A stretch of 64,000 bases of DNA from Synechococcus sp. PROS-U-1 (GTDB taxonomy: Bacteria > Cyanobacteriota > Cyanobacteriia > PCC-6307 > Cyanobiaceae), in contig NZ_CP047951.1 of assembly GCF_014279755.1 (NCBI RefSeq), forward strand, positions 1,178,001 through 1,242,000, read 5' to 3'. Positions 16,526 to 51,903 of this stretch are shown piece by piece. The notes beneath the pieces are model-generated. The model saw nothing but the letters and a program-made list of their open reading frames with translations. It had not been told where the DNA came from and made no database searches. Both the position numbers and the translations under genes were made by a program. Numbering within the stretch: position 1 is the stretch's first letter; the number at the start of each line of letters is the position of its first letter.

Positions 16526-17359
16526 TTAACACTGATTCGTCACCCATTCAGCAGCTTTTTTAAATCCTAAATCTGCTGATTTTCTCCAATCCTGACATGC
16601 ACCCTCAAGATCATTTGCTAATTCCTTTGAAGCGCCGCGATTGCGGTAGGCCTCAGAATCCTGCGGATTAATATCTATCACCTTGCTCCAATCATCAATA
16701 GACCCGTGAAGATCTTCTAAGTTAACCTTTGCATAGCCACGAAGATTGTAGGCAATAGAATCCTTCGGGTCAATCTCTATTGCGTTGTTTAAATCAGAAA
16801 TTGCTCCTTCATAATCTTCTAATCCCTTCAGTTTCAGCTCACCACGATTTCTGTAGGCACGAGCTTGTTTAGGATCAATCTCTATTATCTTCGTGTAATC
16901 AGAAATTGCTCCTTGATAATCTGCTAGGTGATACTTTGCAGTCGCACGATTGTAATAGGCATTAGTAGACTTAGGGTTTATTTCTAGTGCCTTCGTGTAA
17001 TCATGAATAGAACCTTGGTAATCCTTTAATGCGCCCTTGGTAACGCCACGATTGTCGTAGGCAAGGGCTTGTTTGGGATCAATCTCTATTGCCTTCGTGT
17101 AATCAGCAATTGCTCCTTGATAATCTTCTAAATCATACTTAGTAATGCCACGATTATAGTAGGAATCAGCATCCTGAGGGTTGATCTCTATTGCCTTCGT
17201 GTAATCCTCGATTGCTCCTTGGTAATTGTCAGCCTTGTATTTCTCTACTCCTTGATTGAAATACTGAATTCCCAATGGGTTCGTACAACCAGTAATCAAC
17301 GGAGACCCAAATGCAAGCACAGACAATGCTGCAGCAATGGCAGTAGTCCGGCGAGACAT
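16526..17359 (-). CDS. TPR-repeat lipoprotein
   Basis: 277 residues from ATG 17359, chosen because it gives a clean lipoprotein signal: MSRRTT, a hydrophobic core and the lipobox LITGC. An ATG at 17413 would add 18 residues. The rest is seven tandem 34-residue tetratricopeptide repeats, each close to AYYNRGxxKxxLxDYQGAIxDYTKAIEIDPK; the last is degenerate and rich in Trp, Cys and Lys. TPR solenoids bind other proteins; the partner is unknown. The lipobox points to the outer face of a membrane. Third codon positions look more A/T-rich than in nearby core genes, and the repeats are near-identical at DNA level, a sign of recent expansion. Confidence 0.85.
   Translation of the reverse strand: MSRRTTAIAAALSVLAFGSPLITGCTNPLGIQYFNQGVEKYKADNYQGAIEDYTKAIEINPQDADSYYNRGITKYDLEDYQGAIADYTKAIEIDPKQALAYDNRGVTKGALKDYQGSIHDYTKALEINPKSTNAYYNRATAKYHLADYQGAISDYTKIIEIDPKQARAYRNRGELKLKGLEDYEGAISDLNNAIEIDPKDSIAYNLRGYAKVNLEDLHGSIDDWSKVIDINPQDSEAYRNRGASKELANDLEGACQDWRKSADLGFKKAAEWVTNQC
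16560..17265. repeat. Tandem 102-base repeats coding TPRs
   Basis: About seven in-frame copies of a 102-base unit. Short strings such as AATTGCTCCTTGATAATCT and CTTCGTGTAATCA recur at this spacing. Such DNA can change copy number by slippage or recombination. Confidence 0.6.
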
Positions 17360-17460
17360 TGGTTTGGTGTTCTGCTTCAACCAGTGTAAGAAGGATCCTG
17401 AGTGAGGCATCAAAAAGGCTCCCCCTTAAGGAGTGCCTGCGGTTGAGTTGAGGTCGAGAC

Positions 17461-38477: not shown

Positions 38478-38789
38478 ATGTCTCAGCGTCTGTTCACCTT
38501 GATGTGTCTCTTGGCGGCGATTGGCCTGCTTGCACCACGCCTCGTTCTGGTCTTGATGTGGTTCGTCAACAGCAGCTTTGTTCTGCAGCCATTTAGCGGC
38601 ACCAGTGTTCCCAACCCAGTGCTCCCTGTTCTTGGCTTGCTGTTTTTACCCACAACAACCCTGGGCTATTGCTGGGCTGTGGCGTCGTTTGGAGGGGTGT
38701 CTTCATTCAGCGGACTTTTGGTTGTCTTGATCGGACTGATCATTGATTTCGGTTTGATTGGCAACGGTCGCGGTGTTGTGCGCCGTTGA
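38478..38789 (+). CDS. Small integral membrane protein, 103 residues
   Basis: Three hydrophobic segments: residues about 5-35 (LFTLMCLLAAIGLLAP onward), 48-72 (PVLPVLGLLFLPTTTLGYCW) and 75-97. Ends in GNGRGVVRR. Similar small proteins are widespread in cyanobacteria but their function is unknown. The stop overlaps the TTG of the HIT-family gene. Confidence 0.75.
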   Translation: MSQRLFTLMCLLAAIGLLAPRLVLVLMWFVNSSFVLQPFSGTSVPNPVLPVLGLLFLPTTTLGYCWAVASFGGVSSFSGLLVVLIGLIIDFGLIGNGRGVVRR

Positions 38790-39253
38790 GCAACTTGTTT
38801 GTGGAAAACTGCGCCATCTGTCGACTGCATGCCGACCCCGTCGCCCGAGAGCGTTTCGAGATTCAACGATCTGGCTTCTGGTTGTTGCGCCACCACCCCG
38901 ATCCAGCACCCCTCCCCGGCTGGCTTCTGTTGGATTCCCTGCGCCACTGTGCGGGGCCCGTGGATTTTTCTGAGGAAGAAGCCGCCGATTGGGGCCGTGC
39001 TGTAAGGGATGCAAGCCATCTCGTGAAGCAGATCACCGGATGTCAGCGCGTCTATGCCATCGCGTTTGGAGAGGGAGCCCAGCACCTTCACCTGCATCTC
39101 ATCCCGCGACACCTTGACGATGCAGCATCCAAAGCCTGGGCGGTTGCTGATCTGTATCGGGCGATGGATTCAAATGATGACGTTGCGGCCGACCCGGCAG
39201 TGGTGGCGTCTGTGGTTCAACGCTGTCGCTCCTGGATCAGCGATCACAGTTGA
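38786..39253 (+). CDS. HIT-family nucleotide hydrolase
   Basis: 155 residues from TTG 38786. The catalytic histidine triad is in HLHLHLIPR, and the N-terminal CAICRLHADP has the C-x-x-C of many HIT proteins. HIT enzymes cleave dinucleoside polyphosphates or nucleoside-phosphoramidates. The exact substrate is unknown. The stop overlaps the end of the convergent hypothetical gene by 17 bases. Confidence 0.85.
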   Translation: MSNLFVENCAICRLHADPVARERFEIQRSGFWLLRHHPDPAPLPGWLLLDSLRHCAGPVDFSEEEAADWGRAVRDASHLVKQITGCQRVYAIAFGEGAQHLHLHLIPRHLDDAASKAWAVADLYRAMDSNDDVAADPAVVASVVQRCRSWISDHS

Positions 39254-39659
39254 AGCGTTTGCGCATGTTGGTTGAATTGACGCGTTGTTTCAAGCTCCCA
39301 AGCGGCCAGCCAAGGTGTCTGAGGTGACTCAGGGTGTTGGTTGAAGCGCTGAAGCAGTTCTCGCTGTAGCTGCTTTTGATCCCAATTTCCTTGAGGGTGA
39401 GTAGCAGCAACCGCTGCTCTCGACGGGTTCCACGACGGCTGGCGAGAACCACAAAATCGCAGTGGCTGAGCTGTTCAGAGATCGCCTCGATGTTGTCGCA
39501 ATAGCCAAGGTTCAATGTTTGATCAATGGCGCGATAGGCGGTGTAGATCCGTCCTGCGGGATTGTCTTGAAGGGTTTGGACCCTTTCGCTCAGAGCAATA
39601 ACGGCTTCCATGACTGGCGCCTGGAGAGCTTGTTCCATCTGATCAATCAGCATGATCAA
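39237..39659 (-). CDS. Hypothetical protein paired with an RHH protein
   Basis: 140 residues; start ATG 39659 (or 39653). No signal or membrane segment. N-terminal helix MEQALQAPVMEAVIALSERVQTLQ and a basic C-terminus (SLKQRVNSTNMRKR). Contains three Cys. Its start overlaps the stop of the RHH gene by four bases (ATGA), the layout common in toxin-antitoxin or regulator-target pairs, but I cannot see any toxin motif, so no function is assigned. Confidence 0.65.
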   Translation of the reverse strand: MIMLIDQMEQALQAPVMEAVIALSERVQTLQDNPAGRIYTAYRAIDQTLNLGYCDNIEAISEQLSHCDFVVLASRRGTRREQRLLLLTLKEIGIKSSYSENCFSASTNTLSHLRHLGWPLGSLKQRVNSTNMRKRFNCDR

Positions 39660-39892
39660 AGCCCCCCCACGGCCAAGCGTTCATCACAGGCGCCTTCGTA
39701 AGCACGGATGGCTGCGTTGGGAATGGAGCCATTGCTCTTGAGTTGGCGCACCGAGAGCTCCACGCACTGGAGCACAACGCTGGTGAGTTCTCGGCCCTCG
39801 CACAGCGCCCAGCTCCGAAGCAGGACGTGAAGGCTTGGAGGAACGGAGACCGTGAGCTTGACCTGGGTTTCGCGGGTGGAAGTTTTGATCAT
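39656..39892 (-). CDS. Ribbon-helix-helix (CopG-like) protein
   Basis: 78 residues from ATG 39892. The N-terminal strand QVKLTVSVPPSLHV followed by helix VLLRSWAL and helix ELTSVVLQCVELSVRQL fits a ribbon-helix-helix DNA-binding fold of the CopG/MetJ type. The C-terminal tail (AAIRAYEGACDERL) may contact the partner. Coupled to the next gene by ATGA. The upstream DNA has direct and inverted repeats that could be its operator, so autoregulation is likely but not shown. Confidence 0.7.
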   Translation of the reverse strand: MIKTSTRETQVKLTVSVPPSLHVLLRSWALCEGRELTSVVLQCVELSVRQLKSNGSIPNAAIRAYEGACDERLAVGGL

Positions 39893-39908
39893 GTCCCAGG
39901 GTATGCCC

Positions 39909-39983
39909 AAGCGTCTCAAGAGTACCTCATGAGTTGCTGACGAGCAACTTGCGGGTATCTCAGGAGTTGATTTCGAGACGCTT
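39909..39983. promoter_or_regulatory. Repeat-rich control region upstream of the RHH gene
   Basis: Outer inverted repeat AAGCGTCTC (39909-39917) and GAGACGCTT (39975-39983). Inside, a direct repeat GTACCTCATGAGTTG (39922-39936) and GTATCTCAGGAGTTG (39955-39969), two mismatches, 33 bases apart. Between them a perfect hairpin AGTTGCTGACGAGCAACT (39932-39949). Layered symmetry of this kind just upstream of an RHH gene is what an operator looks like. Confidence 0.5.
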
Positions 39984-40325
39984 GGTCGCTGTTCGAGCTG
40001 TGTTGTGGATCTTTGGAAGCGGCCTGCTCTGCGAGCTTGGTTGAAGCCTGTTTGTTCGGCGAATTGGTTTTCCTTCGATGCAAATTGTTGATGCGCTGCA
40101 GTTAACCAAACCGTTTGTTTGTACTTGTGATGGGCTGGCGATCCATCCCTGGTAGCGGTCTGAACCGCATGCGGGGACGTGCTCGCTCAGCGAGTTGGGT
40201 CGCCAGGCTCACTAGAAATCAAGGAATGAGTTTTGGTCATGCAACTTGAAGAGGTGTTGACCAGCTGACGTCGTGGTTTTACCAAGCTCCGAAGACCCAA
40301 AATCAGCCGAATTCATCTGCCTTCA
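39984..40325. other. Intergenic stretch without a convincing gene
   Basis: About 340 bases between the RHH control region and the next + strand gene; no frame with protein-like composition seen. Confidence 0.5.
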
Positions 40326-40553
40326 ATGTCGGCCGCCACACGCTTGATCAAAAAATTAGATAATTCTCTGGCCAGTTACGACAGTTTTGGAGACAACCCC
40401 AGCGCTCTCACGGAAGAGATCTTGGCCAAGCTTGAAAAGCACTTGGACAAACTGCGGTCCAAGTCGAATCCTGAGCTGATGTCCGAGATCTATGTGGAGC
40501 GAGACCGTGCTCTGCTGAAGCAGGAAATCCTGAACCGCGTGATGGCCGGTTGA
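40326..40553 (+). CDS. Hypothetical protein, 75 residues, helical
   Basis: Starts at ATG 40326. Highly charged and mostly helical (LTEEILAKLEKHLDKLRSK, YVERDRALLKQEILNRVMAG), no Cys and no membrane segment. Consistent with a small soluble helical-hairpin protein. No family recognised; the regular codon pattern supports it being real. Confidence 0.6.
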   Translation: MSAATRLIKKLDNSLASYDSFGDNPSALTEEILAKLEKHLDKLRSKSNPELMSEIYVERDRALLKQEILNRVMAG

Positions 40554-42664: not shown

Positions 42665-42682
42665 CTTAGGTACTTTAGGAAG

Positions 42683-42769
42683 CGGAGAGGGTCGGATTCG
42701 AACCGACGGTGGGCTTGCACCCACGCTGGTTTTCAAGACCAGAGCCATAAACCACTCGACCACCTCTCC
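42683..42769 (-). tRNA. tRNA-Ser (anticodon TGA)
   Basis: 87 bases on the - strand: acceptor GGAGAGG/CCTCTCC, D arm, anticodon stem CTGGT/ACCAG around the loop with TGA, a long class II variable arm (GTGGGTGCAAGCCCAC) and T arm GTCGG-TTCGAAT-CCGAC. The long variable arm and the discriminator G are proper for serine. CCA is not encoded. Reads UCN-type serine codons. Confidence 0.96.
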
Positions 42770-42827: not shown

Positions 42828-45158
42828 TCAGCTCTCTGGCTTGGCCAGAGGCAGCAGACATTTGTCGGAATCACAGCCGGCGGGGCCTGCCTCAGTCAGC
42901 TCACCTTGGTCGTAACGCTGGAGCGCTTCGAAGAAATCACTGCTGACGCGACGCTTCACCACTGCGGCTTGCATGTCTTCATAGGTGGCCAAATCAATGG
43001 GCTCGAAGGGAAGACGGGGGAAGGTTGCGTTGGCGTCAAATCTTGCCAGCAGTGCCGCGGAGATGTAGCCCTCACCGTTTTCCATCGCTTGATGGAGAGC
43101 ATTCGCCAGTGGCTCGATTTCGTGCTCGCGGAATTCGATCGTGGCTGAGGTGTTGTGGGCGGTGTAATGCCGCTGCACCTGCATATAGAAATCGAATTGA
43201 GCCATGGCACTGAAGCCGTTGATGTCGACGGCGTCGGCTCCAGGCAGGTTCGCCCAGCTCACCTCGGTGGGGATCTCCACCAACCATTCGGTGCAGCGTG
43301 GGTCAAATGGATCATCCAGAAGACGGCCGTCGTCGTCCTTGTCGGACTGGGACGGCACCACGGTGTAGCCGTAGTCCATGCAAGCCATGGCCACTGGATC
43401 ATTCTTGCGGAACGTGATCCGACGGATGAAGCGCTGAGCTTTCGGGGGATGCCAGCCAGGGGCTGCTCCGGTGAGCAGGCTCTTGGTCCCAGCAGGTTGA
43501 ACGGTGGTACAGCGGTTGGGGCGTCGCAGCCCCTGACGGTCGCAGTAGTCCCAGACGGTTTGATTGACGATCTCCTTCCAGCGGCTCAGGTATGCGGTTT
43601 CCTGCTCCTTGAAACGAAGACCTTCCTCAGTTTCCGGTCGTCCTGCTTCCCACCAACGCAACCATTCAGTTCCGAAGGCATGCACGAAGAAGTCGAACAG
43701 ACCTGTGAAGCTGACGCCCACGATCGGATCCCACTCGCGGCTCTGGCGATAACGCTCAACCTCAAAGCGATGGTTGAGAAGACAGGCCACGGATAAGGCT
43801 GCAGCGCGGAAGGCGTCGGCCTGACCTTCTTCATCGCTTGGGTCAATCTGGTTGAGATGCACCTCGGCGAGGTTGCAGTGGAAGTCGGTACCCAGGATCT
43901 CTCCACACGGATTCAGTCCGTAACGACTGAGCCGATGCTCCAGTTCCTTTGTTCCGATGGGGCCGTGGTTGTCGGCCAACCATCGACCAGCTTCCTCACG
44001 ACCTTGGTCGCAATAAATTTCGATGAATTCGCTGCGCAGCTCTGGGGTGATGAGCAGATCGGCGTTGGAACGCGCGATGGCCTCGGGGGCGAACTGGATG
44101 GCGCCTTCACCAGAGTGGAACTGCTTGGTTACAGCAGCGTGCACCACGTCCTTGCTCGGACGGGTGTGATACACGCGGGTGTGGTTGGCCATCCGGAGCG
44201 CGTCACGCTCGGGATCAATCCGCCAGTTTCCGTCCTTGTCCTGTTGCCAGAGGTTGTCCTTGGATGAGGCAGCGGCCTGGTCATCGGCGGCGAACTGGCG
44301 CATGCCAGCACTCCGACGGATATTTCCGGCAACGATGGTGACAGCGGCTTCGTCAATAAGCAGACAGCACTCAACTGACGTCAGGCGACGGCCCTGGGCC
44401 TTGTTCAGCAGTCGGGCGACACGCCCGTAGAGATCCTTCAGCTTCACGGGATTGGCCATGCCGCCGAAGCCCTTCAGGGTTTCACCGACGGGGCGGACAT
44501 CGTTGAGGTCCACCACAACCTGAACCGGTCCGCCGTTGAAGCGTTCATCGCTGCTGAGCTCAAGCATCAGCTGGTAGCTGTCAACCCAGCCCCGGCGGGT
44601 GTCCCCCACCTTGATGGTCACCGTGTTGCCATCGATGCTGTGGGTGCATTCGTCTTGACGCTCGGCCGTCGGAGTGATGCCGATGTCACTAACGCTGAGG
44701 ACTTCAAGGGTGTTGCGCACCACAGGAAGCCTGTCGATCAAGTGAGGCTCAATGATGGCGCCGGTGCCGCAGCCCATCATCGCCAGGTCCATCATCAGAC
44801 CGAAGGCCTGCCAGTCCACAAGATTGGTGGAGGTGCAGTTGTAGGAGCCGGAGAAGTTCTCGGATTGTTCAATCCAGCGGGTTCCACCAATCCACAGCCA
44901 GCGGCCTGAAGGAAGGGCTTTCTTTTCGGCCTGCATTCGTGCCAGCAGGGCAACTTCTTCGGTGTTGAGGTTGCCCAGCTGACGGAGACCTTCCAGGTTT
45001 CTTTGGCCAACCTGGCTCCAGCTTTCACGGCCGTCTGGGGTCTTACGGCTGTAGGTGCGATAAAAAACCGGGTTGGCAGCTGGAGCCGTTGCGGGGAAGT
45101 CGCCGAACGCGGCGACGGCTCCAGCAGAGGCCTCCACACGGTTTGGAGTGAGAGTCAC
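42828..45158 (-). CDS. nrdJ: Adenosylcobalamin-dependent ribonucleoside-triphosphate reductase (class II)
   Basis: Makes deoxyribonucleotides from ribonucleoside triphosphates using coenzyme B12 as radical source, so it needs no oxygen or iron. 776 residues, the monomeric Lactobacillus leichmannii-like type. Active-site features: NCTSTNLVD (first redox Cys), LNPCGEILG with the thiyl Cys and Glu, and the C-terminal CDSDKC pair that re-reduces the active site. Start ATG 45158. I found no cobalamin riboswitch before it. B12-dependent reductase is usual in marine picocyanobacteria, which must make pseudocobalamin. Confidence 0.95.
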   Translation of the reverse strand: MTLTPNRVEASAGAVAAFGDFPATAPAANPVFYRTYSRKTPDGRESWSQVGQRNLEGLRQLGNLNTEEVALLARMQAEKKALPSGRWLWIGGTRWIEQSENFSGSYNCTSTNLVDWQAFGLMMDLAMMGCGTGAIIEPHLIDRLPVVRNTLEVLSVSDIGITPTAERQDECTHSIDGNTVTIKVGDTRRGWVDSYQLMLELSSDERFNGGPVQVVVDLNDVRPVGETLKGFGGMANPVKLKDLYGRVARLLNKAQGRRLTSVECCLLIDEAAVTIVAGNIRRSAGMRQFAADDQAAASSKDNLWQQDKDGNWRIDPERDALRMANHTRVYHTRPSKDVVHAAVTKQFHSGEGAIQFAPEAIARSNADLLITPELRSEFIEIYCDQGREEAGRWLADNHGPIGTKELEHRLSRYGLNPCGEILGTDFHCNLAEVHLNQIDPSDEEGQADAFRAAALSVACLLNHRFEVERYRQSREWDPIVGVSFTGLFDFFVHAFGTEWLRWWEAGRPETEEGLRFKEQETAYLSRWKEIVNQTVWDYCDRQGLRRPNRCTTVQPAGTKSLLTGAAPGWHPPKAQRFIRRITFRKNDPVAMACMDYGYTVVPSQSDKDDDGRLLDDPFDPRCTEWLVEIPTEVSWANLPGADAVDINGFSAMAQFDFYMQVQRHYTAHNTSATIEFREHEIEPLANALHQAMENGEGYISAALLARFDANATFPRLPFEPIDLATYEDMQAAVVKRRVSSDFFEALQRYDQGELTEAGPAGCDSDKCLLPLAKPES

Positions 45159-51455: not shown

Positions 51456-51903
51456 ACAGATCCTGAGCAATGCCTCGGAACGATTTCATCGAGGCTCCAG
51501 GACGACGGCTGCGTTGGCGCAATCCGCCACCTGGGGCGAGGTTGCTGGGAGCGAAGGTTGTGTAAGTAACGGCAGGACGTGATGCGTCCGCTGCGGCGAG
51601 TTCCGCTGCGATGGCGTCCGCAGTGGTCATCCCAGAGGAGGACTGAGGACGGTCTTCACCCTTGGGTTCAGCAACAGCCTTGGGAGCAGGAGCAGCCTTG
51701 GGAGCAGGAGCAGCCTTGGGAGCAGGAGCAGGAGCAGGAGCAGTGGCTGTGGGCTTGGGAGCCTCCAGCGTGGTGGTGGCTACCGAGGACTCAGGTGTTG
51801 CTTGCTTCTCCTGGGAAGCCTCTTTCTGAGGCACCTCAAGGGTGGCCGGATCGGCGGCGTCATCCAGGGTGAGGAAAAAGCCCTTGTTTCTGTTGAACAC
51901 CAT
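51445..51903 (-). CDS. Pro/Ala-rich hypothetical protein with AAPAPK repeats
   Basis: 152 residues from ATG 51903. N-terminal MVFNRNKGFFLTLDD, then a low-complexity central part with three APAPKA-type hexamers, then a conserved-looking C-terminus (ADAIAAELAAADASRP, RSRRPGASMKSFRGIAQDLFK). Probably unstructured in the middle. A conserved C-terminal patch suggests binding; the function is unknown. DNA repeats of about 18 bases (GGGAGCAGGAGCAGCCTT) encode the hexamers. Confidence 0.7.
   Translation of the reverse strand: MVFNRNKGFFLTLDDAADPATLEVPQKEASQEKQATPESSVATTTLEAPKPTATAPAPAPAPKAAPAPKAAPAPKAVAEPKGEDRPQSSSGMTTADAIAAELAAADASRPAVTYTTFAPSNLAPGGGLRQRSRRPGASMKSFRGIAQDLFKS
51660..51742. repeat. 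Short tandem repeats coding Ala-Pro-Lys units
   Basis: 18-base unit GGGAGCAGGAGCAGCCTT repeated about three times and followed by GGAGCA repeats. In frame in the gene at 51445-51903, so copy changes alter only the linker. Confidence 0.7.

Follow-up and report, generated by a model that had tools for sequence, protein, structure and literature searches.

What does a phased series of repeats do directly in front of two small, coupled genes on a picocyanobacterial chromosome? The question is raised by a locus of Synechococcus sp. PROS-U-1, contained in a stretch of 64,000 nucleotides (NZ_CP047951.1, positions 1,178,001 to 1,242,000; hereafter, the window), in which a gene for a ribbon-helix-helix (RHH) protein is followed by the gene for a partner protein (Table 1). 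An earlier sequence-only reading of this DNA described layered operator-like repeats and likened the pair to toxin-antitoxin or plasmid-copy operons. We propose that the locus is probably a vertically inherited, autoregulated two-gene operon of some picocyanobacteria, in which RHH dimers would sit side by side on an array of 11-bp units. Few photosynthetic cells are as abundant as marine Synechococcus and Prochlorococcus, and these genera possess few transcription regulators. A conserved DNA-binding protein for which a precise array and just one target are predicted lends itself directly to testing.

The repeats upstream of the RHH gene form one seven-unit array, each unit consisting of a 7-bp pseudo-palindrome, RGNNNCY, and four loosely defined bases. 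The 7-bp cores are at 39910, 39921, 39932, 39943, 39954, 39965 and 39976 (the 39965 core is degenerate), and 13 bp separate the end of the array from the RHH start codon (ATG at 39892; the open reading frame itself opens at TTG 39919). Three features previously described are all present at 39907-39985: an outer inverted repeat, whose arms at 39907-39933 and 39959-39985 are 78% complementary, a direct repeat with copies at 39922-39951 and 39955-39984 (73%, spacing 33), and the inner hairpin. However, they are not separate layers but views of one 11-bp array. The direct-repeat spacing fits the array because 33 is three times 11, and the inverted repeats and the perfect hairpin occur here because the units read much alike on both strands. 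For self-matching at lags 11, 22 and 33, the array is the top-scoring segment of the 64 kb (0.509; mean 0.26, standard deviation 0.031; next best 0.390). Its lag-11 z of 5.4 was equalled in none of 500 dinucleotide shuffles, and three exact consecutive RGNNNCY units occur in the window at the array only. Tandem Repeats Finder, run on the window, did not report the array.

The same phasing is found in relatives. In the 110 bp before the RHH gene of 35 Synechococcus-type loci (27 from whole genomes and eight from named contigs), the mean lag-11 self-match is 0.424, whereas dinucleotide shuffles average 0.253 (z 23.8); harmonics appear at lag 22 (z 19.3) and lag 33 (z 15.8), and no other lag from 4 to 33 is above z 2.6, although these z values overstate independence given that the loci are kin. 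The best lag within 4-33 is 11, 22 or 33 in all 35 loci. The arrays comprise 4 to 10 units, and their letters vary between genomes. In the matrix of 247 units, core positions 1, 2, 6 and 7 are R, G (0.89), C (0.96) and Y, and the matrix approximates its own reverse complement, the central base excepted. That both the letters and the number of units differ between genomes points to maintenance of the 11-bp phasing by selection rather than to recent common origin. Three loci (L029-L031), in which the match starts within a longer gene, were analysed as a separate type. L062-L073 were also excluded from these array counts, eleven of them duplicating DNA of loci already used; the twelfth, L064, is very closely related to L015, and its array was detected by the profile described below. 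A conserved RNA hairpin was considered and rejected: a perfect 6-bp hairpin is present in only 13 of the 35 loci (79 of 700 shuffles), a slight enrichment of the kind that palindromic units would produce, and folding is weak on average (z of -4.7 at the window locus, with a mean of -1.1 over the 35 loci and values below -2 in seven).

The upstream gene had been called RHH-type, an assignment with which the predicted structure agrees. In the predicted model, itself modest in confidence, the 17 best-ranked structural alignments have Z of 4.1-4.8 over 43-49 residues, the best being PutA (2gpe; Z 4.8, 2.4 A over 47 residues), and we take all 17 to be RHH chains (PutA, CopA(SO), Rv0298, TacA, CopG, AmrZ and Arc). 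By sequence, the window protein has no Pfam RHH match, searches of family libraries (Pfam, NCBIfam and PADLOC among them) placed neither protein of the pair above cut-off, and PDB sequence searches with both proteins gave no convincing match. A remote RHH relative in genome G100 reached E 9e-4 for RHH_5, under the cut-off of that family.

The predicted DNA-contacting strand of the RHH protein reads KLTVSVP in 35 of 35 Synechococcus-type loci and K[LV]Q[VI]S[VI]P in the small-genome genera of the same family, which, judging by their genome size and A+T content, are probably Prochlorococcus. There, the array unit also differs, being AATCTATNTAG-like, unlike RGNNNCY, so that a change from T to Q at one residue of the strand accompanies the change of unit. 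Alternate strand residues of RHH proteins contact bases, which makes T to Q a candidate specificity change. The 11-bp phase is retained in the small-genome genera, with a z of 18.8 over 34 sequences (shuffles that keep single bases only; G036 and G042 are present twice) and 10.7 over the 11 non-redundant sequences left after 23 near-duplicates were removed; in this set, the reading frames were found through the strand pattern itself and the gene starts were set by a length rule. The small-genome RHH proteins carry an extra N-terminal helical region and are 163-183 amino acids (aa) long (longest open reading frames at six loci). The two natural versions of protein and array, T with RGNNNCY and Q with the AATCTATNTAG-type unit, suit a study of specificity switching in a beta-ribbon protein.

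Is the array the only target of the RHH protein? A five-unit profile run over both strands of G000, the 2.58-Mb genome to which the window belongs, found one place at E<=10, the array, among the 150 of 585 first-look candidates that were scored. Within the genus (60 candidates scored per genome), the profile matches at the RHH gene in each of the 27 RHH-bearing genomes among 34, and nothing reaches E<=0.1 in the seven without an RHH gene, six of which are less than 80% complete. It likewise matches just upstream of the RHH gene in 20 of 20 named-contig loci; given that the profile was built from such arrays, the uniqueness and the absences are informative, and the matches themselves are not. 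Weak matches in other genera and distant cyanobacteria (E 5e-4 to 0.1; e.g., G066, G073, G078, G082 and G089) may reflect chance or simple repeats. Because the genome yielded no strong target besides the array, we infer that the RHH regulon consists mainly of its own operon. A rather unlikely alternative is that the RHH protein and its partner regulate other genes from weaker sites missed by the strong-array profile. The very high conservation of the RHH protein would suggest constraint beyond a single operator, and single or paired units would escape a five-unit model. Nevertheless, no second array appeared at E<=10 in the G000 scan, and three-unit matches with at most one mismatch are not enriched in the 64 kb, where six of the 11 fall outside the array and chance alone would give 11.3.

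The partner protein is predicted to have a GIY-YIG/T5orf172-type fold that lacks the catalytic Arg. Its model (predicted local distance difference test, pLDDT, 76.8; predicted template modelling score, pTM, 0.63) has the beta-beta-alpha-beta-alpha order of GIY-YIG domains. Structural matches to viral proteins start from E 3e-4 (probability 1.00), with 13 at E<=0.001; among the best 50 of 1,125 such matches, all 18 that are informatively named are T5orf172, MUG113, Bro, MTG or GIY-YIG proteins. Realigned Slx1 chains from the PDB have Z of 4.8-5.6 (the best, 5.6, with 4.4 A over 97 residues), below the caution line of 8 set by the tool itself. A plain Foldseek search of the PDB gave no hit at E<=0.001, the weak hits including UPF0213 BH0048 (1zg2) and I-TevI (1ln0), and no sequence-profile match to the GIY-YIG/T5orf172 families was found.

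In GIY-YIG nucleases, Arg and Glu are described as catalytic (PMC8263062). The Arg expected in helix 1 is absent from the window partner and is not conserved in the alignments, one of which left out L068, L071 and L077, whereas Glu 81 is present in 18 of 18 Synechococcus-type sequences; the combination of Arg in helix 1 with Glu in helix 2 that would mark a catalytic GIY-YIG nuclease is thus missing. Proteins that distantly resemble the partner, 188 and 191 aa long, are encoded in G020 (L139:3630-4196) and G377 (L140:3641-4216). They have an R..H pattern after the YIG-like strand and no convincing Pfam match, and are possibly active GIY-YIG nucleases, judging from these residues; the pattern would fit descent of the partner from an active nuclease fold.

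The RHH and partner genes are consistently found together. A strong RHH match (E below 1e-37) was obtained in 132 of the 400 family genomes searched, and in each of the 132 the partner gene comes immediately after the RHH gene on the same strand, so that the two small genes are adjacent with the DNA-binding protein first; the pair had been expected to co-occur in relatives, and it does. In G000, a single-contig genome, the pair occurs once. The coupling of the two genes, previously described as ATGA, holds in a different form in the window, where the partner start overlaps the RHH stop by four nucleotides as TTGA or follows it as an ATG 2 nt past the stop. ATGA coupling is present in relatives: with partner starts picked by script in 20 loci, a start could be read in 18, of which 12 overlap by 4 nt and six begin at +2 nt.

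These properties resemble those of a type II toxin-antitoxin module, in this case a new GIY-YIG-fold toxin with an RHH antitoxin: two small coupled genes with the RHH gene first, an operator array, strict co-occurrence (132/132) and joint absence from one genome (G022, see below). We consider such a role very unlikely because of the conserved synteny, the lack of phage or plasmid matches and the degenerate partner. Searches of 50,697 phage and 72,556 plasmid records gave nothing for the pair at E<=0.01, and the partner, in which no known toxin motif had been recognized before, indeed matches no toxin or defence family in Pfam, NCBIfam or PADLOC and lacks the predicted catalytic Arg. Furthermore, the RHH protein (79-99% identity to that of the window in 17 relatives) is far better conserved than the partner (41-81%), and a partner match is found without a strong RHH match in G101, G142 and G168. 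The conserved chromosomal location and the loss of the catalytic Arg, together with the lack of mobile-element matches, also speak against the toxin-antitoxin or plasmid-copy reading proposed from the sequence.

The three genomes just named (L136, L137 and L138) belong to one genus, g61, in which the partner homologue has other neighbours; two more genomes with a partner match and no strong RHH match are G252 (contig edge) and G350 (weak). In g61, no RHH gene is present and two other small genes follow the partner homologue, the second ending in a GVGPK motif that we take to be helix-hairpin-helix-like. Weak RHH-profile matches occur in G029, G046, G100, G144, G160, G302, G308, G358, G366 and G421, of which G046, G100, G144 and G160, with weak matches only, were left out of the 132; G097 has a weak single-protein match (32% identity). 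In G100 (L142:3449-4587), the 237-aa remote RHH relative overlaps by 4 nt a different second gene, of 142 aa, an arrangement that suggests partner exchange.

The operon is confined to part of the family. A strong RHH match is missing from 268 of the 400 genomes, and the operon is, for this reason, dispensable for the family as a whole; of the 20 related loci found on named contigs, 18 are from Synechococcus. On contig 3 of G022 (L105, 5993-6773), the flanks are intact, with the RHH gene, partner and array all missing; 133 bp separate the stop codon of the HIT-like gene from tRNA-Ser, and the ribonucleotide reductase flank is also kept. In G008 (98% complete), none of the three was found, nor was the HIT-like flank. 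All of 12 other single-contig genomes of the genus have a short-chain dehydrogenase gene close to the locus, and the HIT-like gene and the reductase gene are each nearby in 11.

The distance from the locus to dnaN is 0.44-0.50 of the circle in all 13 single-contig genomes of the genus. A special near-terminus position was considered on this basis and rejected: recA (0.15-0.21) and ftsZ (0.30-0.39) hold their dnaN distance equally well (standard deviations of 0.017 and 0.024, compared with 0.016 for the locus) and the neighbourhood moves along; the near-terminus position is explained by a general tendency to retain distance from the origin. The corresponding values in two small-genome single-contig genomes are lower (0.40 and 0.42).

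The array could also be viewed as a centromere-like nucleoprotein structure, on which the RHH protein would load as ParR or ParB do and the partner would act as an adaptor, the complex serving to position or organise the chromosome in addition to autoregulation. Consistent with this possibility, a multi-unit array stands just before the operon in the 35 loci, and the scans gave one array per genome. In plasmid pSM19035, sites of 7-10 heptads are described over the promoters of the plasmid's own genes, with a requirement of at least four contiguous heptads for full ATPase activation (PMC9499535). We nonetheless regard this reading as unlikely. The operon contains no motor gene, the nearest AAA_31 (ParA/MinD-type) match being about 155 kb away in G000 (ParM was not searched genome-wide); the near-terminus position is unremarkable, recA and ftsZ holding their dnaN distance too; and many genomes, among them the near-complete G008, lack the system. 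Its more specific form, a motor-less chromosomal system in which the RHH protein coats a single array, the pseudo-nuclease serves as adaptor, and the self-regulating complex conveys position or copy information, appears quite unlikely; the joint change of array unit and RHH strand between Synechococcus-type and small-genome genera belongs to this picture.

Under the autoregulated-operon reading that we favour, one RHH dimer would bind each 7-bp pseudo-palindrome, RGNNNCY or, in the small-genome genera, the AATCTATNTAG-type unit. Given that the 11-bp repeat is about one helical turn, neighbouring dimers would lie on the same face of the DNA and could load cooperatively. The resulting RHH coat would cover the DNA directly before the start codon, and the operon would be repressed when the RHH protein is plentiful. 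The partner would most likely modulate the RHH-DNA complex by binding nucleic acid or protein without cleavage, or else act as the effector of the operon.

Several observations weigh against this reading, or against the strength of its support, besides the kinship of the loci and the partial scoring of candidates in the profile scans. A set of 4-10 units is many for a simple autorepressor. No sigma-70-like or consensus promoter was found in 39100-40400, so that repression by promoter occlusion is an assumption. Confidence in the RHH model is modest (pLDDT 68, pTM 0.40), and the N-terminal strand is not formed as a strand in the monomer. Lag 11 taken alone reaches p < 0.05 in 34 of the 35 Synechococcus-type loci, the exception being L027 (p 0.068). 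For the small-genome genera, lags 9, 13 and 15 also deviate in the A+T-rich set of 34 (z 6.5-9.0), lag 13 keeps a z of 4.1 in the 11 non-redundant sequences, and, among six loci taken one by one, the maximum is at lag 11 or 22 in five and at lag 13 in L098. Finally, the co-divergence of unit and strand residue may be a single event, i.e., one switch between two sets of genomes.

The locus shares features with several known systems. The omega protein of pSM19035, an RHH ParB, likewise has many 7-bp units in either orientation over its own promoter and serves both regulation and partition (PMC9499535); it differs in its contiguous heptads (7-bp period, compared with 11 bp here), its plasmid location, its ParA (Delta) and the lack of a GIY-YIG-fold partner. 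In the ParR/parC system of plasmid R1, an RHH protein is combined with 11-bp direct repeats (PMC9426499); that system is plasmid-borne with the actin-like motor ParM, whereas the present locus is chromosomal with no motor gene in the operon. TrcR of Anabaena, compared here by description, is a cyanobacterial RHH repressor of its own promoter, with an 18-bp motif and several targets, and the accessible portion of the report mentions no coupled partner (PMC10272220). The partner's predicted fold is that of T5orf172, MUG113 and GIY-YIG proteins (Bro, ICP1 Gp88/Odn, Slx1 and I-TevI), from which it differs in lacking the catalytic Arg and any Pfam match and in being coupled to an RHH gene. A literature search found no paper in which an RHH protein is coupled to a pseudo-nuclease of GIY-YIG fold.

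Table 1. Features of the locus and its flanks (coordinates within the window)
Feature	Position	Strand	Basis or remark
Array of seven 11-bp-phased units (RGNNNCY + 4 bp)	39906..39982	minus	lag statistics, unit matrix, profile search
Perfect hairpin, two 7-base arms and a 4-base loop	39932..39949		two adjacent array units in opposite orientation
RHH gene, 78 aa	39656..39892	minus	strand KLTVSVP followed by helices; predicted model, alignment to RHH chains
Partner gene, 140 aa	39237..39659	minus	TTG start at 39659 or ATG at 39653; predicted GIY-YIG/T5orf172-type fold, no catalytic Arg
HIT-like gene	38786..39253	plus	convergent with the partner gene; conserved neighbour, outside the system; no family match
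tRNA-Ser (TGA)	42682..42769	minus	with the ribonucleotide reductase gene, the other conserved flank
B12-dependent ribonucleotide reductase gene	42828..45158	minus	conserved flank

The flanking protein called HIT-like begins with TTG and has no match in Pfam or NCBIfam; we presume it to be HIT-like from its HLHLHL motif. Two other repeats were seen in the window. An ORF (open reading frame) on the minus strand (16526-17413) is overlapped by a 102/204-bp tandem repeat (16763-17226) and looks like a repeat protein. The top-scoring short-period array of the window is an 18-bp tandem repeat at 51660-51743 (four copies, 92% matches), which we would guess to encode a low-complexity protein linker.
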